From contig NZ_JASJOC010000013.1 in NCBI RefSeq assembly GCF_030068615.1, positions 1-64,000 of the forward strand: a DNA stretch of 64,000 bases, in the 5' to 3' direction. The position numbers were made by a program, and so were the translations under genes. Positions 1,425-36,235 of the stretch are shown piece by piece. Under the pieces are notes generated by a model. It saw nothing but the letters and a program-made list of their open reading frames with translations, did not search any database and was not told where the DNA came from. How positions within the stretch are numbered: the first letter of the stretch is position 1; each line of letters begins with the position of its first letter. This stretch comes from Halostagnicola sp. A-GB9-2. GTDB lineage: Archaea; Halobacteriota; Halobacteria; Halobacteriales; Natrialbaceae.

Positions 1425-2705
1425 ATGGCGAAACAGGTCGTCACCCGCACCTACACTGCTTCTATCAGGAATCAGCAACAGGTGTCTGATGACCTCGATT
1501 CGCTCGGGTTCTCAGCCTCGAAACTCTGGAACGTCGGGCGGTGGACAATCAGTCGTGTCTGGGACGAAATCGACTACATTCCAGAACATGACGAACTCAC
1601 CGCGTACCTCAAGAGTCACGAACGCTACGATGACCTGCATTCTCAGTCAAGTCAGCGAGTCCTTCAAGAACTCGCTGAGGCGTTCACCGGCTGGTACGGC
1701 AAACGACGCAACGGAGACACGCGAGCGAACCCGCCCGGCTACCGCAAACACGGTGACGAACACCCGCGTTCCACAGTCACGTTCAAAGCCGCTGGCTTCA
1801 AGCTCGACACAAAGTACAACCGGGTTCGACTCTCAAAAGGCTCGAATCTGAAAGAATACTGGTCGGACTTCATCCTCTGTGAGTACCAGACCCGGCCCGA
1901 CGTTGACCTCTCAACCGTGGAGAACATCCAACAGGTGCGGGCTGTCTGGACTGGCGAGGAATGGGAACTCCACTTCGTCTGCAAAGTCGAGATCGACGTG
2001 TCCGAAGCACCCGGTAAGAAGACAGTGGGTGTTGATCTCGGTATCAACAACTTCGCGGCGCTCGCCTACGAAGACGGCCAGGCCGACCTGTACCCACTCA
2101 ACTGTCTGAAGCAGGACGACTACTACTTCAGCAAGCGCATCGCTCGGTGTGACGACTCTACGTCCAAGCAAGCAAATCGGTTGAACCAGAAGAAGTCGGC
2201 TCGCCGCACCCACTACTTCCACGCCCTCTCGAAACACATTGTTGAACGATGTGTGGATGAAGGAGTTGGAACCATCATGGTAGGCGACCTCTCCGGTATC
2301 CGCGAAGACGAGGAGAACGGTGAGTCAAAGAACTGGGGGAAGCATGGCAACCTCGACTTGCACTCGTGGCCGTTCGACCGATTCACCGACCTCCTCGAAT
2401 ATAAGGCCGAGATGGAGGGTATCGCGGTCGAAGAAGTGTCCGAGCGGGATACGTCGAAGTCGTGTTCGTGCTGTGGTCGCACGCGGGACGCGAACCGTGT
2501 TGAACGCGGGTTGTACGTGTGCGACGTATGCAAGATGGTAGCGAACGCTGATGTGAATGGTGCTGAGAATATTCGACAGAAAGTATCTCCGAGTCCCGCC
2601 ACGGATGGCGGTGATAGGAGTAACGGCTGGTTGGCACAGCCATCGACGTTCCTGTTTGACAAGGAAACTGGCGCGTTCGCGCCTCAAGAGCGGGTCACGT
2701 CGTAA
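1425..2705 (+). CDS. tnpB: TnpB, RNA-guided nuclease of an IS1341-type element
   Basis: A 426-residue TnpB, full length for the haloarchaeal family. The RuvC-I motif VGVDLGINN carries Asp204. The C-terminal zinc finger has CSCC at 347-350 and CDVC at 366-369. RuvC-III is NADVNGAEN with Asp376. The RuvC-II strand reads TIMVGDLSGIREDEE, so glycine (G287) stands where the canonical catalytic Glu would be; a Glu further along (IREDEE) could substitute. No tnpA is present, as in IS1341-type elements. In this family the enzyme uses a right-end-derived guide RNA to cut DNA and favour element retention. The downstream 2706-2762 region carries the structured right end. It closely resembles the TnpB at 5198-6454. 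Confidence 0.93.
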   Translation: MAKQVVTRTYTASIRNQQQVSDDLDSLGFSASKLWNVGRWTISRVWDEIDYIPEHDELTAYLKSHERYDDLHSQSSQRVLQELAEAFTGWYGKRRNGDTRANPPGYRKHGDEHPRSTVTFKAAGFKLDTKYNRVRLSKGSNLKEYWSDFILCEYQTRPDVDLSTVENIQQVRAVWTGEEWELHFVCKVEIDVSEAPGKKTVGVDLGINNFAALAYEDGQADLYPLNCLKQDDYYFSKRIARCDDSTSKQANRLNQKKSARRTHYFHALSKHIVERCVDEGVGTIMVGDLSGIREDEENGESKNWGKHGNLDLHSWPFDRFTDLLEYKAEMEGIAVEEVSERDTSKSCSCCGRTRDANRVERGLYVCDVCKMVANADVNGAENIRQKVSPSPATDGGDRSNGWLAQPSTFLFDKETGAFAPQERVTS

Positions 2706-3411: not shown

Positions 3412-4716
3412 CTACCCGTCACACGTGCTTTCGGGCGTGACGCTGCCGCCGATCGACGAGCAGTCAGAGATTTCCACCTCGTCAGTTGTCTCGACGGTCA
3501 CGTTGCCCTCGATCGAGGAGTTCCCCTTGAGTTCGATCGACACCTCGTCAGTTGTCTCGACGGTCACGTTGCCCTCAATGACCGAACTTCCGGACAGATC
3601 GATATTGACCTCGTCGTCGGTCGTAACCGTCACGTCGTCGCGGATCCGCTCGTTGCCGCTCATCGTCAACATCACTTCGTCGCTCGTGTCGACATCGACG
3701 CTTCCGTCGATTTCCGAGCCGCCACTGACATCGATGTGGACCTCGTCGGTCGTCTCGACAGAGAGGGGGCCGACCGACGCGTCGCCGCTCAGATCGACTG
3801 TTACCTCGTCGGTCGATCCAAGCGACATCGCGCCGTCGACGGTCCCACCGCTACCGACGATCACGTCGAGTTCGCCCGCCTCGTCGGCACAGAACCCCCC
3901 GCCGACAGTGCCGCTGATATTGGCGATCACCTCGTCGCTTGTCGACAGCTGGAGGGGGCCGCCGATCGTTGCCCCGCCACCCATCGAGAGCTCTATTTTG
4001 GCACCCGTGTCGATGCTGAAGTAGTCGGCGACGCTGCCGTGATGCGTGACATCGACCTCGTCGTCTGTTCGGATGTCGACGGCTCCGCCGACATCGATCC
4101 CACCGCCGATCTGCTCAGAGACTTCACCGGAGGTGTGTATCACGACGCTGCAGTCGGTGCCGCCCCACGCCGGAAAATTCTCGTCCGTACAGCCGGGCGG
4201 GTCGCGCGGCGCACACACGTCCTGACCCGGTCGCGTACAGCTTACCTGCACCGATCGGGTGAGATCGACAGACTGCTCGGGGCTCGACGCCGAGACCGAC
4301 ACCTCCATGGTTCCGACGCCACCGCTACAGGAGAGGTCGCCTTCGATCGCATCGGAGGCTCCCGGCGGCAGTCCAGCAGGGGTTCGGAGTGAGTTCGGGT
4401 CAACAGGGGCGTCGACGCCGTCGACGATTTCTGCCTCGATCGAAGTGAGTTCCGACCCAAATCGGTTCGTCACCTCAAACAGTGTCACGGTGTCGCCGTC
4501 GCCGCCCGAGGGCTCCTCGATGTCGATCTCGAGCAACGCGTTCTCGTCGACTGCGGTACCGATGTCGAACGCGCGGTCCGCAGAGAGCAAGTCGAACGCG
4601 CCGGTCGTGTACGCACCCGCCGTGCCAACTGCTCCAGTGCCGACGAGCAACAGGAGAGAGCGACGGCTGATCCCGCCCCCCGATCGGCTTCGATTACGCT
4701 TGCGTTTTCGTGCCAT
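3412..4716 (-). CDS. Tat-exported DUF1102-like protein with a repeat solenoid
   Basis: A 434-residue protein from the ATG at 4716, just before the basic Tat signal (SRRSLLLLVG, residues 17-26). After the signal comes the TGAFD...ADRAFDI segment seen in DUF1102-like surface proteins; the protein at 11526-12113 has a matching segment. From about residue 230 to the end the chain is a repeat of roughly 22-24 residues. Each unit carries a T(T/S/D)DEV core then alternating hydrophobics and a Ser-Gly turn; eight clear cores (RTDDEV, STSDEV, GSTDEV, ETTDEV and variants) and two degenerate ones are visible. The pattern predicts a beta-solenoid, possibly a right-handed beta-helix. Cysteines flank the repeat region. 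Function unknown; probably a cell-surface structural or adhesive protein. Confidence 0.8.
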   Translation of the reverse strand: MARKRKRNRSRSGGGISRRSLLLLVGTGAVGTAGAYTTGAFDLLSADRAFDIGTAVDENALLEIDIEEPSGGDGDTVTLFEVTNRFGSELTSIEAEIVDGVDAPVDPNSLRTPAGLPPGASDAIEGDLSCSGGVGTMEVSVSASSPEQSVDLTRSVQVSCTRPGQDVCAPRDPPGCTDENFPAWGGTDCSVVIHTSGEVSEQIGGGIDVGGAVDIRTDDEVDVTHHGSVADYFSIDTGAKIELSMGGGATIGGPLQLSTSDEVIANISGTVGGGFCADEAGELDVIVGSGGTVDGAMSLGSTDEVTVDLSGDASVGPLSVETTDEVHIDVSGGSEIDGSVDVDTSDEVMLTMSGNERIRDDVTVTTDDEVNIDLSGSSVIEGNVTVETTDEVSIELKGNSSIEGNVTVETTDEVEISDCSSIGGSVTPESTCDG

Positions 4717-5134
4717 GAGTTGGGCCCCACAATGCGGAAAAGGCACCGCTGGCGTGGGCGCCTGCAAGACCGACGCCCTCACTTGTCTCTGCAGCGAGAA
4801 TCAGACTCCGGCGGGTAATCGACCCCCTGGATCCCCGCTTGCGCCCCCTTTTGAGCCCCATATCTGGAGAGTTAATAACTTGAGAGAGTATAGCGACGGG
4901 AACCTATTCAATCTTATTGAATTGTCTCGAAACGTTAGGTTCACAACACCAACGGTCGCTGTCGCCCGACGACTATCGATTATAGAGTGTGTCGCGGCCG
5001 ACCAACCGTCTCGCGATCGGAGTTCGTTCACTCGCTCGATTGCGGTGTCTCTCTTTGAACAGCGAGAGAATTTTACCGTTTACGGTGGGCGTGAATCGCG
5101 TCACTGGACGACACAATCCACTGTTGGTGGCTGG
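4717..5134. other. Intergenic region with a degenerate element end
   Basis: No gene is supported. AT-rich sequence around 4865-4960 could hold a promoter for the gene on the minus strand. At 5081-5107, ACCGTTTACGGT forms a short hairpin followed by GGGCGTGAATCGCGTCA. This resembles the GATGAATC-type end at 1303-1330 and the sequence at 62638-62665. It may be the remnant of another TnpB-type element. Confidence 0.4.
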
Positions 5135-5197: not shown

Positions 5198-6454
5198 TTA
5201 CGGTTTGCAGACTCCCTGTTCTCTCGGTGTGAACCGGCCGCTCCCGCGATTGAACAGGAAGACTCCGGGCTGTGCCAACCAGCCGTTACTCATATCTCCC
5301 GTCGGTGGACTCTGAGTTATCTTTCGTCGGATGTTCACCGCACCGTTCACATCTGCGTTCATCGTCGTCTCGCACGACGAACAGACGTACAATCCACGCT
5401 CCACGCGGTTGCTGTCTCGAATCTTCCCACAACACGAACACGTTTTGCTGGTATTTTCCTCATCGACACGATCAACGAGGATCCCGTGTTCCTCGGCCTT
5501 GTATTCAAGGAGACGGGCGAATCGGTCGAACTCCCATCCGTGGAGTTTCTTGTTCCCCGACTGGCCCCAGTTCCGCGAGGCACCGTTCTCGTCTTCGCGG
5601 ATGTCGCTGAGGTCGCCAACCGCGATCTTCTCCACGCCTTCTTCGACGCATCTCTCAACGATGTGTTTCGAGAGCGTGTGAAGGAAGTGGTCTTTGCGTC
5701 GCGAGAGCTTCCGGCGAGCCTTCAGCGCACGCTTCGACGGCCCGTTCTCGCCTTCGGTTTGGTATTCCTCGCGGGTGAAGTAGTGCTTGTCCTCTTTCAG
5801 AACGTTCCCCGGATACAACTCACTCGCCCCATCTTCGTAGTCGATCGCGAGGTAGTTGCTGATACCGAGGTCGATACCAGCCGTGTTGTCGCCGGGTGCA
5901 TCCTCAACAGGAATCTCTTTCTTGCAGACAAGGTGTAGTTCCCACTCGTCTCCGTTCCAGACGGCACGCACTTGCTGGATGTTCTCGACTTCTACGTCGG
6001 GGCGGGTTTCGTACTCCGCGAGTATGAAGTCTGACCGTGTTTCTTTCAGGTTGAAGCCTTTCGAGAGGCGGAGTTGGTCGTGCTTGTCGTCGTGTTTGAT
6101 GCCTTTCTGTTTCCACGTCACAGTGGAGCGTGGGTGTCGATCGCCACGTTTCCGATAGCCTGGTGGGTTGTTGCCGTCATCAGAGTTGTACCAGCCGTTG
6201 AACGCCTCAGCAAGTTCTTCGAGAACTCGCTGACTTGACTGAGAATGAAGGTCACTGTAGCGTTCGTGGTTTTTCAACTCCGACTTTAGCTCGGCTTCGT
6301 CGGGTATCTCACCGTCTTCATCCCACCGTTCTTCGATGTAGTAGCGGCCGACGTTCCACAGTTTCGACGCGGAGAACCCGCACTGGTCGAGATCGGCACG
6401 AACCTGACTGTGGTTCGTGATCCGGGCGACGTAGGTTCGGGTCGTCTCCAGCAT
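5198..6454 (-). CDS. tnpB: TnpB, RNA-guided nuclease of an IS1341-type element
   Basis: A 418-residue TnpB from the ATG at 6454, whose N-terminus (MLETTRTYVARI) aligns with the other copy; the in-frame upstream extension has no family likeness. RuvC-I AGIDLGISN carries Asp195, the zinc finger has CSCC near 339-342 and CSSC near 358-361, and RuvC-III NADVNGAVN carries Asp368. RuvC-II reads IAVGDLSDIREDEN, again with Gly (G280) in place of the canonical Glu. N-terminal and central segments (FSASKLWNVGR, LHSQSSQRVL, VENIQQVRAVW) are shared with the first TnpB, so the two elements are close relatives. The gene looks intact. Confidence 0.93.
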   Translation of the reverse strand: MLETTRTYVARITNHSQVRADLDQCGFSASKLWNVGRYYIEERWDEDGEIPDEAELKSELKNHERYSDLHSQSSQRVLEELAEAFNGWYNSDDGNNPPGYRKRGDRHPRSTVTWKQKGIKHDDKHDQLRLSKGFNLKETRSDFILAEYETRPDVEVENIQQVRAVWNGDEWELHLVCKKEIPVEDAPGDNTAGIDLGISNYLAIDYEDGASELYPGNVLKEDKHYFTREEYQTEGENGPSKRALKARRKLSRRKDHFLHTLSKHIVERCVEEGVEKIAVGDLSDIREDENGASRNWGQSGNKKLHGWEFDRFARLLEYKAEEHGILVDRVDEENTSKTCSCCGKIRDSNRVERGLYVCSSCETTMNADVNGAVNIRRKITQSPPTGDMSNGWLAQPGVFLFNRGSGRFTPREQGVCKP

Positions 6455-6464
6455 CGTACTGTGT

Positions 6465-6496
6465 GCATAACGAGTTATGCAACAGAGTATATTAAA
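6465..6496 (-). promoter_or_regulatory. Promoter of the second tnpB with dyad element
   Basis: TTTAATATAC on the minus strand (6487-6496) is a good archaeal TATA box about 37 bp upstream of the ATG at 6454. GCATAAC-GA-GTTATGC at 6465-6480 is a 7-bp inverted repeat between the TATA box and the expected transcript start. That position is typical of a repressor operator; a 5' RNA hairpin is the alternative. Confidence 0.5.
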
Positions 6497-6664
6497 GACT
6501 GTGTTTGACGTGGAATATCCAGGCGTACCGGAGTCGGTGGAATGAGTCACTGAGTGACGGCGCGTATCCACGCCGTAAACGACGTGGTATTGCGCCTGCT
6601 CAGCGTATAACTGTAAGCAATTGATGAAAGCACTACCATACCCGTCCAATAACTGTGAGACACG

Positions 6665-6671: not shown

Positions 6672-6699
6672 TATTGTGCTGCACTCAAAACGGCATGAT

Positions 6700-9138
6700 A
6701 TGGGGTTGCAGAACGAGGAGGTTACTGGTCAGGAAACGACGTGTGCTATCTCTGATCAGATCGGAGCAAGCACACACTGGAAGACGTACAGTGGACGGAC
6801 TGATGATGGAGAGCCAACTCTTATCAGAGTGTTACAAGGGGAGGTTCCCGATTCAAGTCACGACCGATTCAACGGGCTCGTGAGACAATGGGCAAGCATC
6901 AGTGATCGAGAGTCAGTCCGTGGCGTTATCGACTGGGGGACAGAGATCGAACCGTGGGTCGCTGTCGAGTACGCCTCCTCCGATGGAAAACAGTTCGCAA
7001 GCGGTGGGATGGTCGACACCGCGATAGCGTGTGACGACCGGACGAAAGTCGAGCTCGTTAGCGAGGTCTGTGAAACTATCCAGACTTATAGCCGGTATGG
7101 ATCGACATCGCATCACCTTGCTATCCATCCGGATTGTCTTTTTTTCGGAAACGGACAAGATGGTCCTGTAGCCATCGTCGACGACTGGGGAGTGAGTCGC
7201 CTTGTGAACGAGCCACCGATAACACCATACACGGCTCCCGAACAACTCGAGGACGGCGGACACGCGAAAAAACGCACCGACATCTATCAAGTTGGTGTGC
7301 TTGCCACACACCTTCTAACGGGGACAACCCCGTTTGCCGACGATGCCGACAGCGATGACCCGGAAGCATTAGCGAGTACAATCGAGAACGGAATCGACGA
7401 AACAGTACTTCCGGAGGGGACTGTAGAGCCGATCAGTAAAGCGATGGCCGTTGATCCGGAAGACCGGTACTCTGCCCTGTCACAGTTCCAACGCGACCTG
7501 CTCAATGCTGTTCCAGCATCCACCGATCGGGCAACTGGTTCGCTCATCGCAGTAACGACACCGACCTTGGCAGCCACGAACACCGGCGAAAGACAGGCAG
7601 ATACCACTGGTTCACCAAGCAGCGAGTCAACAACGGCAGTCAATTCACCGACAGAGACAGCCACCACATCGTCACAAACAGACACCGCATCGACACGGAC
7701 GGACACGACAAACGCACGGCCTGATCGAACGGGAACCGGAAACGGTAATTCCAGACGCTCTTTCCTCAAATACGGAGTCGTCGCCGTAGGGGGTGCTGGA
7801 GCCATGTATCTCGGGTTGCCGATACTCACTGGTGACGAGTCACTCCGGAGTGCGTTACCCGGTGGGACAACTGGCTCGGATCCAGCCGCTGGTTCCGGTG
7901 GGGACGTCCGCGTCAACACCGGGTTTCGGTCGTGGCTCGAGCCCCTAGAGAACAACGCAGAGAACGTTGGCATCCCGAGAGAAGCCGATGTACAGATACA
8001 GGAGGGACCTGCAGACCCAGCACACCGAGTCGACGAACTTATCAATCAAGTCGAATCAGACCAGCCACAGCCCGATCTCTTCGTCGTTAATGAGACAGAA
8101 TTAGGGATGCTCATGGAGGCTACGGTGACCGACTCCATGGGCGAGCATTCGATCGACGAGACACTCAGAAATACGCCGCCATTGTACGAGGCCCTGAGTC
8201 AGCATCCAAGTGATGGAGTTCATCATGCGATTCCCTACGGATTCATGCCACTGGTCGTTGCGTATCACAAGCCCCTACTCCGTGAAATGGGGTATGATAA
8301 TGGGGTATTTGAGGCGTGGATGACGGATCCGCCGAGCTGGGAACAGTGGTCCGAAATTTCCGCATTCGCCCGCGAAATGATCGGGACCCCGTTCGGATTC
8401 ATCTGGCCAGGTCAGCCGACCCAGCTTCCAGGGTTCTTTACGTCGGTTCTGGAGGCATTCGGTGGCACATACTATGGAAGCCCCGACGCAGCCACAGGAC
8501 CCATTACCGATCGGCCTGTGACGATCGCCAATCCGCAGGCCGTTGAGGCAACGAACGTCATTCACGACCTCGTCACCGGGGATAACCGCTCGTCACACGC
8601 TATCGAACAATGTACTTCCGACGATATCTTTTCGATGGGGTTCAACCAGGTTTACGAACTATTAATGGGCCAAGAAGCAGTCGCCGCACAGATCCCACTG
8701 AGTCTCGCCCGCATACTGGTCGAAGAATATGGGCCGGATGAGGTCGGCATCATGCCCATGCCGACAGGTACAGCCAGGTCAGCAACAACAGCCTTCGGAT
8801 CGTACGTTGCTATGAATCCGAATACAGAGAATACGGGCGGAGCACTCGAGGTGGCAAGCGCGTTCCGATCACCAGAATTCGCACAGATGATCCTCTCTCA
8901 GGGATATGAGATACCGTTTGGTGAGGATATACAAGCCGACGGTCTCTTTGACTCCTCACTGTACGAACCATATGCAGACACGTTCCAGTTTATTGCCGGA
9001 TCACCAGCGGTTGAACCGGCTGGAAACGCCTGGATCGACGAACGTGACGTAATCGGTGAACAGATGGTCGAAGCAGTCATGGGATTCAGTCCAGAGCCAA
9101 TACTCGAACAGCTCGCCGAGTTCATCGATCATAATTGA
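6700..9138 (+). CDS. Pseudokinase - internal Tat anchor - solute-binding fusion protein
   Basis: An 812-residue protein with three parts. Residues about 25-270 have the Ser/Thr-kinase fold pattern: the activation segment ends YTAPEQL, followed by TDIYQVGVLATHLLTG as in active kinases. The catalytic loop reads HLAIHPDCLFF where HRDLKPxN is expected, so the catalytic Asp is Ala and the Asn is Cys. DFG is DWG, and the VAIK lysine looks like Arg (TLIRVL). This is a predicted pseudokinase. A Thr/Ser-rich linker (about 270-350) leads to SRRSFLK plus a hydrophobic segment (about 351-376), an internal Tat-type signal/anchor. The rest (about 400-812) resembles family 1 ABC sugar-binding proteins. The expected topology is kinase-like domain inside, binding domain outside. 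An in-frame GTG at 6676 is an alternative start. No transporter genes are adjacent, which suggests sensing rather than uptake. Confidence 0.85.
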   Translation: MGLQNEEVTGQETTCAISDQIGASTHWKTYSGRTDDGEPTLIRVLQGEVPDSSHDRFNGLVRQWASISDRESVRGVIDWGTEIEPWVAVEYASSDGKQFASGGMVDTAIACDDRTKVELVSEVCETIQTYSRYGSTSHHLAIHPDCLFFGNGQDGPVAIVDDWGVSRLVNEPPITPYTAPEQLEDGGHAKKRTDIYQVGVLATHLLTGTTPFADDADSDDPEALASTIENGIDETVLPEGTVEPISKAMAVDPEDRYSALSQFQRDLLNAVPASTDRATGSLIAVTTPTLAATNTGERQADTTGSPSSESTTAVNSPTETATTSSQTDTASTRTDTTNARPDRTGTGNGNSRRSFLKYGVVAVGGAGAMYLGLPILTGDESLRSALPGGTTGSDPAAGSGGDVRVNTGFRSWLEPLENNAENVGIPREADVQIQEGPADPAHRVDELINQVESDQPQPDLFVVNETELGMLMEATVTDSMGEHSIDETLRNTPPLYEALSQHPSDGVHHAIPYGFMPLVVAYHKPLLREMGYDNGVFEAWMTDPPSWEQWSEISAFAREMIGTPFGFIWPGQPTQLPGFFTSVLEAFGGTYYGSPDAATGPITDRPVTIANPQAVEATNVIHDLVTGDNRSSHAIEQCTSDDIFSMGFNQVYELLMGQEAVAAQIPLSLARILVEEYGPDEVGIMPMPTGTARSATTAFGSYVAMNPNTENTGGALEVASAFRSPEFAQMILSQGYEIPFGEDIQADGLFDSSLYEPYADTFQFIAGSPAVEPAGNAWIDERDVIGEQMVEAVMGFSPEPILEQLAEFIDHN

Positions 9139-31619: not shown

Positions 31620-31623
31620 TCAC
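31557..31623 (+). repeat. Solitary TnpB-type element right end
   Basis: GTCGGGC-GTT-GCCCGAC (31557-31573) and GGGAGC-TTT-GCTCCC (31581-31595) hairpins precede GGAGGATGTCAC (31612-31623), the terminal motif seen after both tnpB genes. No tnpB frame remains upstream. The minus-strand stop codon of the neighbouring gene (31620-31622) lies inside the terminal motif. Confidence 0.55.
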
Positions 31624-32828
31624 GTCTCCTCGACACCCTCAATCGTGATGGAGATTTCCTCTTCGATTGCAGGATCGTCAGCTGATACCGGGTCATCACC
31701 CACAGCGATTAGCAGTTCGGCATCACCATCCGTTAGCGGACCAACCTCAACCGAGTCGAGTCCGCCATCGATATCAGTTTCAGTCTCCGCAATGACTTCG
31801 CCGTCTCTGGTTACAGCAACATATGCGCGTTCCTGCCCATCAGCGTCTCCAGAAATCGAGAATCCGTCGGCATCATTGACAGTGATCGTTGCGTGGTCGA
31901 CGAATTCACCGCCGTCTGTCAGCAGTTGCGTCGATTCTCCAGTGACAGCAACACTCTCGAGTTCGGGGTCTGGCTCCTCACCATCTACAATCACGATCGG
32001 ATCCAACGAGTCCGTCTCGCTCACCCCATACAAAGCAGCAGCATTGACAAGGGCCACTGCAAGCACCCCGAGAACGAGTACGCCGGCGATTCCGACGGTG
32101 GCCATGAAAACTACTGACCTCGACTGAGACCGCGTCGAACCACTGTTCGAGTCCGTCGTTGCTCGCGGACGAGATGATCGGTCCGTTCCCTCTTGACTCC
32201 CTCCACCAGCCGATCGCTGTTCACGATAGTCATCGAACAGCGATTCTGTCTCTCCGATCGGAGACAACGGTGCATCACCACCGAGTTCGATCGTCAGATC
32301 ACAGTCGGAAAGCTCAGTGATCCGTGCATTTTCTGCAATCGCCAGCGTATCAGCATCGCCGTGAGTATACTCATACAATAACGCAAGCCCTGCACTGGCA
32401 TCTCGAGTTCGGATCTGAAGCGACTCCCCCCGTCCGACTAACGAGCTTATCATTCGATGATCCTCACGCGATCCTGGAAGGTCTCCCTTCCCGCCATCGA
32501 GCTTCGAGAATACCTCGACGTCGTCGCTCGTCGTCTGCAGTGTCATCTCGAACTCGTCCTCGATACGCTCGCGAAGGTCGTCCTTGAAGCGGGTGAAGAT
32601 TTGATTGAGCGAATCCGTTTCGTAGACGGCGTAATACTGCTCGGCTCGCCCTCCTTTCGTCTCACGCGCACGGAAGAAGACAACAAGTTCGTTTTGTGAA
32701 CCAGTGTCTAAAAAGACACGGACACCCCCGAAGAAGAACTTCTCTATTCGATCGCTCACTTCGGTCGGATCTCTCCCGCTGCTTCGGTATCTGTTCCCCT
32801 GGGAGTCGTAAATTGTGAGTTTTGCCAT
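31620..32828 (-). CDS. Single-pass membrane protein paired with the membrane GTPase
   Basis: A 402-residue protein. Residues 1-225 form a cytoplasmic-looking mixed domain (MAKLTIYDSQGNRYRSSGRD; a GRAEQYYAVYETDSL strand region), followed by a Ser/Arg-rich linker, a transmembrane helix at about 241-266 (VVFMATVGIAGVLVLGVLAV) and an acidic extracellular beta domain to the end. No signal peptide is present. Its stop lies in a TnpB-type right-end motif, so the original C-terminus may have been altered. It sits 3 nt after the GTPase gene, so the two are very probably co-translated and work together. I do not recognise the family. Confidence 0.75.
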   Translation of the reverse strand: MAKLTIYDSQGNRYRSSGRDPTEVSDRIEKFFFGGVRVFLDTGSQNELVVFFRARETKGGRAEQYYAVYETDSLNQIFTRFKDDLRERIEDEFEMTLQTTSDDVEVFSKLDGGKGDLPGSREDHRMISSLVGRGESLQIRTRDASAGLALLYEYTHGDADTLAIAENARITELSDCDLTIELGGDAPLSPIGETESLFDDYREQRSAGGGSQEGTDRSSRPRATTDSNSGSTRSQSRSVVFMATVGIAGVLVLGVLAVALVNAAALYGVSETDSLDPIVIVDGEEPDPELESVAVTGESTQLLTDGGEFVDHATITVNDADGFSISGDADGQERAYVAVTRDGEVIAETETDIDGGLDSVEVGPLTDGDAELLIAVGDDPVSADDPAIEEEISITIEGVEET

Positions 32829-32831
32829 CTG

Positions 32832-34277
32832 TTATCCTCCAAGTCGTTGTAGGAGACGACCGAATCCGACCGTGATAACCGAGCCGCGGTCGTCACGAGC
32901 TGGCACTCGCTCGTCTTCCTCGTTGAGTGTCGTTTCGTAGTAGACCGGGTGAACCTCCAATTCGGGTGTCTGCCGAAGGAGGCTACTGAACTGCTGGCTC
33001 TGACTGAGTTCGTCCTCGACAAACTGCTTGAAGTCGTCAAACGAATCTTGAGGGTCTTGTTCGGTTGCTTCCCAGTACTGGTCGGCGAGGATATCAGCTT
33101 TCGTGGGGACGAGGACAACCCCCGTATCCTCGGCCACCTCGAGAATCGAGAAGTACTCGGCGAGGCCGAGCCCCTCGTTGTTCACGAACCGCTCGAGGTC
33201 GATCAGCAGGATCAACTTGTTCGCGTCGCGAATACCCTCTGTTAGTGCCTCGAGTTCCGCATCCGGATTGGAGATGTTTCCCTCCAACGCGTCGGGAATG
33301 CGGCTCAAGTGCTCGCCCGCGTAATCCACACTCGAGACGGTCACGTTCTTCGGGAACAACGTTCCCTTCACGAACTTGAACTCGAGATGCTGGAGTTCGC
33401 TTCGACCCGTTGCCTCGACGATCCAGTCCGTCGCGTCTCGGTCGAGGTTTTCGACCAGTTCCATCAAATCCTGACTCGGGTTCAACGCCTCTCGTTGACT
33501 CTGGCGTTTGTCTTCGTCACGCTCGAGAGCTTTGAGATAGGCACCAATCAGGAGCAGGCTCTTTCCCGAAGCTGGCGGTCCGAGGACGAAGAAGCTATCG
33601 TTGGATTCGTACTGAGTGAAACGTCGTGCCGTGCCAACGGCAACGCCGCTCGCGAGGACGTTCACCGCTAGTCCGTCAGCCCGAAGCGAGAGTCCCGAGG
33701 ACTCCGGTGAAAGGATTGTGACACCCTGTTCAGAGACTTCGATGAACTCAGGATAGACGATATGTGCCTCGATCAGTGAGACGAACACGACGCCGACCAA
33801 GAGCGCATAAATGCTCCAGGTCGCCCTTCGGTACTCGATTGGACCCATTTGCTTGAGCTCGAGTGCTTTCCGCCCACCGCCGAGTAGCAATCCGAGCACG
33901 AGTCCCGGAAGGATTGCGATCGCATCCTCGGGCTGGCTTACGTCCGGGACGAACGTTCCACTCGAGGCCAGGAAAAAGAGCGTGACGCCGAGCCCGATCC
34001 AGATCAACAACGCCTGCCAGCGTTTTTTTGGATCGAGCGTCATCAGAGCGAGCAAGCCGATTACGAACCCGAGGAACAGGAAGTTGATCACTCCCTGTCC
34101 AATCCCAACGAACTCTCGGAGTTCCATGACCGACCGAAGGATGTGGCTTTCTGTCCACGCGGTCGCGTACAGTTGGGCCAGTACCGGCGTCACCGCAACG
34201 ACAATACCGAGGTACACGAGTAGCGCTATCTTCTCTCCGTGCTCTCGAAGCCCCGTTAGCACCGCTTGCCTCACCAT
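32832..34277 (-). CDS. Membrane-anchored P-loop GTPase
   Basis: A 481-residue protein. The N-terminal 180 residues contain about five membrane helices (about 17-40, 63-81, 88-105, 120-134, 153-170). The C-terminal half is a GTPase-type P-loop domain: G1 GPPASGKS (233-240), G3 DYAG (VSSVDYAGEHLSRI, about 318-321), and G4 TKAD in VVLVPTKADIL. A hydrophobic LILLIDLERF strand precedes G4. The G1-G3-G4 order identifies a TRAFAC-like GTPase rather than an ABC or AAA enzyme. It could be related to double-GTPase or SRPRB-like proteins, but I cannot tell which. A signalling, membrane-remodelling or conflict role with its partner is possible. Confidence 0.75.
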   Translation of the reverse strand: MVRQAVLTGLREHGEKIALLVYLGIVVAVTPVLAQLYATAWTESHILRSVMELREFVGIGQGVINFLFLGFVIGLLALMTLDPKKRWQALLIWIGLGVTLFFLASSGTFVPDVSQPEDAIAILPGLVLGLLLGGGRKALELKQMGPIEYRRATWSIYALLVGVVFVSLIEAHIVYPEFIEVSEQGVTILSPESSGLSLRADGLAVNVLASGVAVGTARRFTQYESNDSFFVLGPPASGKSLLLIGAYLKALERDEDKRQSQREALNPSQDLMELVENLDRDATDWIVEATGRSELQHLEFKFVKGTLFPKNVTVSSVDYAGEHLSRIPDALEGNISNPDAELEALTEGIRDANKLILLIDLERFVNNEGLGLAEYFSILEVAEDTGVVLVPTKADILADQYWEATEQDPQDSFDDFKQFVEDELSQSQQFSSLLRQTPELEVHPVYYETTLNEEDERVPARDDRGSVITVGFGRLLQRLGG

Positions 34278-34960: not shown

Positions 34961-36235
34961 ATGTTCGAACGAATCACAGACGAAGAAGAACGCGGTCAGG
35001 TGGGTATCGGTACGCTCATCGTGTTCATCGCGATGGTACTTGTTGCAGCGATTGCAGCAGGGGTACTGATCAACACCGCCGGACTGCTTCAGTCACAGGC
35101 CGAAGCAACGGGTCAAGAAAGTACAGCACAGGTGTCGAATGTTGTCGAAATTGAGTCCGCAACTGGGCAAGTAGTTGATGACGGCAATCCACTCGAGGAT
35201 GTTGACCTCGTGCTTGAAGATGAAATCGAGGGTACTGCTGCCGACCACACTAGCATTGAATACATCTCCGTAGAAACTGACAACGTATTTGTAGAAAGTC
35301 AAAGCGGAGATGTTGGTGAGCTTGAAGAAGAGCTAGAGGGCGTTGACCTATCCAGTGATGCTGATGTGGAATTTGAAGTTGAAACCGATGAATCGGGTAC
35401 CGAAGATCCTCTTGGTACTGGTGACGACTACACCATTGAAGTTGATGAGAGCTACATCCAAGAGGATGGAACGGTAAAACTATTTGTCCTCGAAGATCCT
35501 GATACAGCCGATAATCTCTTAGTTGAGAGTGTTCTCGACGAGGGCTACATCAATGGTGTTCAGTTCTACGACATGACTGGCGAAATCGATGAGTTAGAAA
35601 TTACCGATCCTATTGGTGTAGGCAACGTGGAGCCACACGCGGAGGCTGACTTTAGTGGCGAAGATCTCTCTGGTGGTGACAACGAAATCGAAGTGGCGGT
35701 AGAGACCACGGATAATGAGGAACTTGGCGACGCAACAGGATCACTTGAATTAACTGCACTCGCCTCTGCAGAAGGTGACGGAGCTGCCATTCAAGTCTTT
35801 GATGATGGAAGTGGAGACCTCGTTCTTGACATCGATGCAGACGAACCCACCGGTCCAGGTACCGGTGACTACATCGACGAAGTCTCGATGATGGTCTCAC
35901 TCGGACCAGGTGCAGATGCAGTTGACCTTGGGGCAGCAACCTTCGAATACGTCGGTGAAGATACTGAGCGAGGTCAAGCAGAGGATCTCATCAACCTTGA
36001 TGTCGAAAGCCTCGAGGGAGAAGATCTGATCAACAGTGACGATGCTGATGCAATCCTCACATCCGATGATCGCTACAACATTGAGTTAGATCTCAACGGA
36101 CCTGGTAATGAAGACTTCTCGCCAATCGAAGCAGGTGGCTCCGCTGAGTTCACTATCGTTACCGCCGACAGCTCCCAAACTGTTGAAGTGCTGATGGCAC
36201 CGTCGACGCTTACTGAAGACGCAATTAGTCTCTAA
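34961..36235 (+). CDS. Archaellin (flagellin), long form
   Basis: A 424-residue archaellin. The N-terminus [20 protein letters not shown] has a class III signal peptide cut by prepilin peptidase PibD before QVGIGT, then the conserved hydrophobic assembly helix ([20 protein letters not shown]). It continues with [14 protein letters not shown] as in all haloarchaeal archaellins. The variable middle is enlarged and very acidic (about residues 70-290). The C-terminal [21 protein letters not shown] and the final VEVLMAP strand are conserved archaellin features. Most archaellins are near 200 residues, so this protein carries a large surface-exposed insertion. It builds the archaellum filament with the following gene. 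Confidence 0.93.

Follow-up and report, generated by a model that had tools for sequence, protein, structure and literature searches.

Receptor pseudokinases are familiar mainly from eukaryotes. Receptors in which a Ser/Thr kinase and a solute-binding protein (SBP) are joined in a single polypeptide have been described in Mycobacterium and Streptomyces (MSMEG_1200 and StpK7 type), and 260 such "SBP kinases" are recorded in InterPro (PMC6069109). A similar logic is found in GlnH-GlnX-PknG, for which readout of an extracellular SBP by an intracellular kinase-fold protein has been proposed, although this system comprises three proteins with an active kinase and an amino-acid SBP (PMC6069109). YukC/EssB of type VIIb secretion has an N-terminal cytosolic pseudokinase, one transmembrane (TM) segment, and an extracellular domain (PMC9600267). 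Furthermore, Rieske and related proteins of actinobacteria have internal Tat anchors, which lie behind Sec-inserted segments, and Sco2149 carries an internal twin-arginine (RR) motif before its weakly hydrophobic last TM segment (PMC5449189). The passage on the FtsZl1 system of Halorhabdus utahensis (Huta_2050-2056) in Makarova and Koonin (2010, PMC2875224) describes three protein-kinase genes and three hypothetical genes.

The gene considered here lies in a stretch of 64,000 nucleotides from Halostagnicola sp. A-GB9-2 (contig NZ_JASJOC010000013.1, positions 1 to 64,000), hereafter the window, and its product combines elements of these systems (Table 1). Like the MSMEG_1200 and StpK7 type, the window protein unites a kinase fold and an SBP in one polypeptide, whereas it is archaeal, is a pseudokinase, and carries an internal RR anchor; the architecture matches but the catalytic residues do not, and with the NCBIfam model of the MSMEG_1200 type (NF052427) the score is 19.5, the cut-off being 900. 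The arrangement of YukC/EssB is likewise similar, whereas the ectodomain of the latter is helical and unrelated to SBPs, and the protein is part of a secretion machine (PMC9600267). In Sco2149, two Sec-inserted TM segments precede the RR motif, whereas in the window protein a folded soluble domain does so (PMC5449189). The statement in a first-pass annotation of this DNA that no system of this design had been described was therefore too broad, since kinase-SBP receptors, single-pass pseudokinases, and internal Tat anchors have all been reported (PMC6069109, PMC9600267, PMC5449189). The design is novel as a variant, and no description of a haloarchaeal receptor-pseudokinase family was found in the open-access literature searched.

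Table 1. Features of the receptor gene and of two candidate partner genes in the window.
Feature	Residues	Position	Strand	Basis
Entire gene (812 aa), encoding pseudokinase, linker, RR membrane segment, and solute-binding-like domain	1-812	6700..9138	+	translation, orthologues
Pseudokinase domain	1-272	6700..7515	+	Pfam Pkinase, AlphaFold2, Foldseek, tree
Arg at the VAIK lysine position of active relatives; invariant in orthologues	43	6826..6828	+	alignment
Pseudo-catalytic loop HHLAIHPDCLF (active relatives HLDLKPxN)	138-148	7111..7143	+	alignment, dN/dS
DWG (DFG-equivalent), invariant	162-164	7183..7191	+	alignment
TAPEQL (APE-equivalent), invariant	178-183	7231..7248	+	alignment
Hypervariable Thr/Ser-rich linker	273-350	7516..7749	+	3% invariant columns, dN/dS 0.66
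Twin-arginine motif SRRSFLK; SRRxxLK invariant in 9/9	351-357	7750..7770	+	alignment
Weakly hydrophobic membrane segment, no lipobox Cys after it	359-377	7774..7830	+	hydropathy, alignment
Solute-binding-protein fold (SBP_bac_1 / trehalose-maltose-binding-protein type)	401-812	7900..9135	+	Pfam, profile search, model matches
Candidate partner, 23.7 kb from receptor: membrane GTPase-like protein of FtsZl1-locus type (481 aa)		32832..34277	-	locus comparison
Partner membrane protein (402 aa) with one TM segment and a novel N-terminal domain that begins MxxLTIYDS		31620..32828	-	locus comparison

The gene translates as one open frame, in which all motifs quoted in the first-pass annotation are present. 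An in-frame GTG occurs upstream at 6676; the ATG at 6700 is the preferred start because an orthologue likewise begins with MGL. In genome searches with the 278-aa kinase part as query, a close pseudokinase match was obtained in only one other genome of the 125 in the host's family, that of Natrarchaeobius chitinivorans. A pattern scan of GTDB contigs returned no loci with the single protein as query and 12 loci with a two-sequence alignment. These yielded eight full-length orthologues with the same domain order, in Natrarchaeobius, Halobellus captivus, and six Halorubrum, so that the three-part order is kept in nine genes, the window gene included, across four or more genera. The anatomy of the gene product is well supported.

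The N-terminal part has a predicted bilobal protein kinase fold. Pkinase (PF00069) is matched at 2.8e-6 over residues 162-262, slightly under the curated Pfam cut-off, and a sequence search of the PDB retrieves PknB with the window protein (5e-6) and PknB-type kinases with an orthologue profile (3e-8). The AlphaFold2 model of residues 1-280 (pLDDT 83.4, pTM 0.85) is matched by Foldseek to PknS (5e-12), BRAF (1e-10), and also TTK, with TM-scores of about 0.6-0.7; the full-length model is poor (pLDDT 43), and only its SBP matches were used, which agree with the profile search. The kinase fold and altered catalytic loop noticed in the first-pass annotation are both borne out. Active haloarchaeal relatives carry K, HLDLKPxN, and DWG, whereas the window protein and its orthologues carry R, HLA(or G)-x-HPDC, and DWG. 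The K-D-K-N-D set of active Hanks-type Ser/Thr kinases is hence replaced by R-A-H-C-D, with only the DWG aspartate kept: the lysine, catalytic aspartate, second lysine, and asparagine are substituted in all nine proteins, and DWG and APEQ are retained. On these residues, an active kinase was rejected as a candidate. Across six Haloferacaceae orthologues, dN/dS is 0.029 for the pseudo-active site, 0.157 across the entire kinase domain, 0.66 in the linker, and 0.50 in the SBP. The almost frozen pseudo-active site indicates that it is maintained by selection for inactivity rather than decaying. In a 65-sequence tree, the domain falls within a 30-member clade of degenerate sequences only (support 100/97), and all 23 canonical kinases lie outside; for the most diverged members, the position of the beta-3 lysine column is uncertain. 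A role in anti-phage defence was also considered and rejected, the PADLOC and NCBIfam matches being generic kinase matches. A second, separate pseudokinase branch (HGSLRPG or HGALRPG) is represented by L019, L021, and L022, and in L019 and L022 it lies near genes for ABC transporters or SBPs. On some haloarchaeal plasmids or contigs (L018, L032, L017), several active-looking kinases cluster together with further genes, HEAT-repeat and PP2C-like ones among them.

The Thr/Ser linker, SRRSFLK motif, and hydrophobic segment reported in the first-pass annotation are all present in the translation. SRRxxLK is the sole conserved element of an otherwise hypervariable stretch in the nine proteins, and no Cys occurs within 45 residues after it in any of them; the transport SBPs of the host genome carry RR plus a lipobox. 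As in Tat substrates, an S/T-R-R-x-F-L-K motif stands ahead of a weakly hydrophobic segment, the hydropathy of which is about 1.3-1.7, compared with 2.4 in Sec-type paralogues. Tat signals are expected at the N-terminus, whereas the motif lies at residue 343-404 in the nine proteins, and the Pfam TAT_signal match is weak (0.025 at residues 350-367). The segment is consistent with an uncleaved signal anchor of the Tat type that leaves the SBP outside, and its insertion may depend on Tat. A folded domain of ~280 aa ahead of a Tat signal is unusual, and the protein may be inserted independently of Tat. A C-terminus outside the cell is fairly supported by the invariant SRRxxLK in a hypervariable linker, the absence of a lipobox, and blue-copper insertions in three orthologues.

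The C-terminal half belongs to extracellular solute-binding protein family 1 (SBP_bac_1/SBP_bac_8). SBP_bac_1 is matched at 2.7e-5 over residues 431-726 (24.7 against a Pfam cut-off of 26), SBP_bac_8 exceeds its cut-off of 27 in the orthologue at L045 (47.2 bits), and in the PDB the SBP half of the orthologue profile matches the Thermococcus trehalose/maltose-binding protein 1eu8 (9.8e-10). The "sugar-binding-like" domain of the first-pass annotation is upheld in its fold but not in its sugar site: the signatures RNWP/S and GGWH/N are present in 11/11 transport SBPs and in 0/9 fused SBPs, and the acidic pocket positions of the transport relatives are also lost. The designation "sugar receptor" is therefore unproven. 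The fused SBPs have an invariant set of their own, many of them aromatic (PY.F.P, W540, W550, W569, FGG.YY, Y702, and W778), and their ligand has probably changed; with the sugar-site signatures lost, the domain may also be unable to bind sugar, or any ligand. The sugar-importer SBPs of the host genome sit in SBP-permease-permease-ATPase operons; no CUT1-type operon (two permeases and an ATPase) was recognised beside the window gene or common to the orthologue neighbourhoods.

The ectodomain varies among relatives. In three Halorubrum orthologues (L045, L046, and L048), a blue-copper (halocyanin-like) domain is located between the membrane segment and the SBP (Copper-bind 8.7e-12 in L045), possibly as a redox or copper input. 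The proteins at L047 and L049 contain a related pseudokinase followed by a strongly hydrophobic TM segment that lacks SRRxxLK and by beta-sandwich repeats, identified in L047 as CarboxypepD_reg (Pfam). Since in paralogues the same pseudokinase is joined to a Sec-type TM segment and CarboxypepD_reg-type repeats, ectodomains are exchanged as in receptors, and the export-signal type changes alongside, which is receptor-like behaviour. Mirror-image proteins with a PQQ propeller, one TM segment, and a C-terminal pseudokinase that carries HYYLSPETV are encoded at L051 (7937-10627), L047 (12973-15624), L109, and L111.

The most interesting part is the link of this pseudokinase-only receptor clade to FtsZl1 membrane-remodelling loci. 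The first-pass annotation did not note this link, and part of such a locus is present in the window itself. The clade contains the sampled FtsZl1-locus kinases, and a trio of FtsZl1, GTPase, and TIYDS genes recurs across haloarchaea and matches the system described from H. utahensis (PMC2875224). The Natrarchaeobius orthologue adjoins such a trio, the products of which are a Tubulin_2 protein (3.9e-11), an MxxLTIYDS TM protein, and a GTPase-like membrane protein. The kinase-fold genes beside FtsZl1 operons (L100, L102, L109, L111, L047, and L051) nearly all encode pseudokinases (HGxLSPETV or HYYLSPETV), with a partial exception at L101 (HLDLKPDN). By its gene content, L102 is probably the H. 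utahensis FtsZl1 locus itself, and its three kinase-fold genes (the third being L062) all lack catalytic residues. In the FtsZl1 passage of PMC2875224 such neighbours are termed protein kinases, whereas those tested here look like pseudokinases; that passage makes no mention of an SBP ectodomain. Of the 83 kinase hits in 194 genomes, 18 have an FtsZl1-type GTPase gene no more than 10 kb away, compared with 0.27 expected. Such a GTPase is encoded in 10/10 tested genomes with this receptor subfamily, against 26/194 sampled haloarchaea (about one in eight), the ten being those of the window, Natrarchaeobius, and eight Halorubrum or Halobellus that are not independent of one another. The GTPase and TIYDS genes of the window are situated 22.5-23.7 kb from the receptor, FtsZl1 itself was not found in this genome, and the same pair without a tubulin-like gene also occurs in another genome (G046, L103); in Halorubrum and Halobellus, the SBP-type gene and the FtsZl1 locus stand apart. 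The choice of partner therefore derives from co-occurrence, mostly within one genus; FtsZl1-type machinery is a possible partner that falls slightly short of probable. A lone archaellin/pilin-like gene (34961-36235, +) adjoins the GTPase gene in the window.

We propose that the protein would act as a single-pass membrane receptor or adaptor, in which a cytoplasmic pseudokinase, a flexible linker, and an uncleaved Tat-like signal anchor are followed by an extracellular SBP-type clamshell, preceded in some species by a blue-copper domain. Binding of a small molecule or partner outside would close or reorient the ectodomain, and the pseudokinase would relay this change inward allosterically, as a docking switch without phosphorylation. 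The change would be received by a partner in the cytoplasm or membrane, for which the FtsZl1-type GTPase/MxxLTIYDS-protein machinery is the likeliest candidate. This explanation as a whole, including the allosteric relay to a partner, is somewhat favoured, and for a ligand-driven signal the balance is even. A wider proposal is doubtful at present: a new archaeal class of receptors, built on pseudokinases whose ectodomains are interchangeable (SBP, blue-copper plus SBP, CarboxypepD_reg, or PQQ propeller). Such receptors would pass signals from the cell surface, with no phosphorylation involved, to a membrane-remodelling machine of the tubulin-superfamily/GTPase kind, and the SBP type would enter the membrane by means of a Tat anchor located after a folded cytoplasmic domain. 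If this proposal is true, a family of dead kinases with exchangeable outer domains lets haloarchaea signal to a tubulin-like membrane system, the function of which has been a question since 2010, and the range of proteins to which a Tat anchor can attach is widened. The apparently dead kinases at FtsZl1 loci, the probable type locus included, alter how that system would work and make it testable.

Other explanations differ mainly in what they make of the two ends of the protein. The loss of the sugar signatures and acidic pocket, together with the fast evolution of the fused SBPs, would suit a membrane scaffold that transmits no ligand-driven signal, in which a relic SBP fold docks to proteins of the surface or S-layer and the pseudokinase does no more than hold cytoplasmic partners; the invariant, largely aromatic set suggests instead a cleft that has changed but been retained, and this explanation is considered unlikely. 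The same loss of sugar-site residues counts against an orphan ABC importer for which the protein would serve as solute-binding subunit and its kinase-like part as regulator of transport, as does the lack of a recognised permease or ATPase gene adjoining the window gene or common to the neighbourhoods of its orthologues; this is quite improbable despite a fold related to the sugar-importer SBPs in importer operons of the host genome.

At the N-terminal end, the near-frozen altered loop (dN/dS 0.029) and the DWG found in 9/9 would also be expected if H143, D145, and C146, all invariant, formed with the DWG aspartate a repurposed active site, for example for nucleotidyl transfer. A docking surface would be expected to freeze equally, however, the lysine, catalytic aspartate, and asparagine are all lost, and the Gly-rich loop is degenerate, so that an atypical active enzyme is improbable. 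For a two-gene fusion artefact or a decaying pseudogene, it could be argued that both domain scores are slightly under Pfam cut-offs and that insertion-sequence genes are close by. In relatives, however, the two parts are not separate genes: the eight orthologues, which belong to other genera, are fused at full length, and the kinase domain is under strong purifying selection. Orthologues and dN/dS together led to rejection of a frameshift or pseudogene, and conservation across genera excludes chance as well as a frameshift; the probability left to this explanation is negligible. The receptor or adaptor remains the preferred reading, and the intact fusion assumed in the first-pass annotation stands.

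Two TnpB-like transposon genes are present in the window (1425-2705 and 5198-6649), one of which ends 50 bases 5' of the receptor start, and this region may be mobile. Between them, a gene on the minus strand (3412-4782) encodes a protein that has a signal of the RR type and numerous TTDEVxIxxSGxSxIEGxVTVET-type repeats and is probably a secreted beta-helix.
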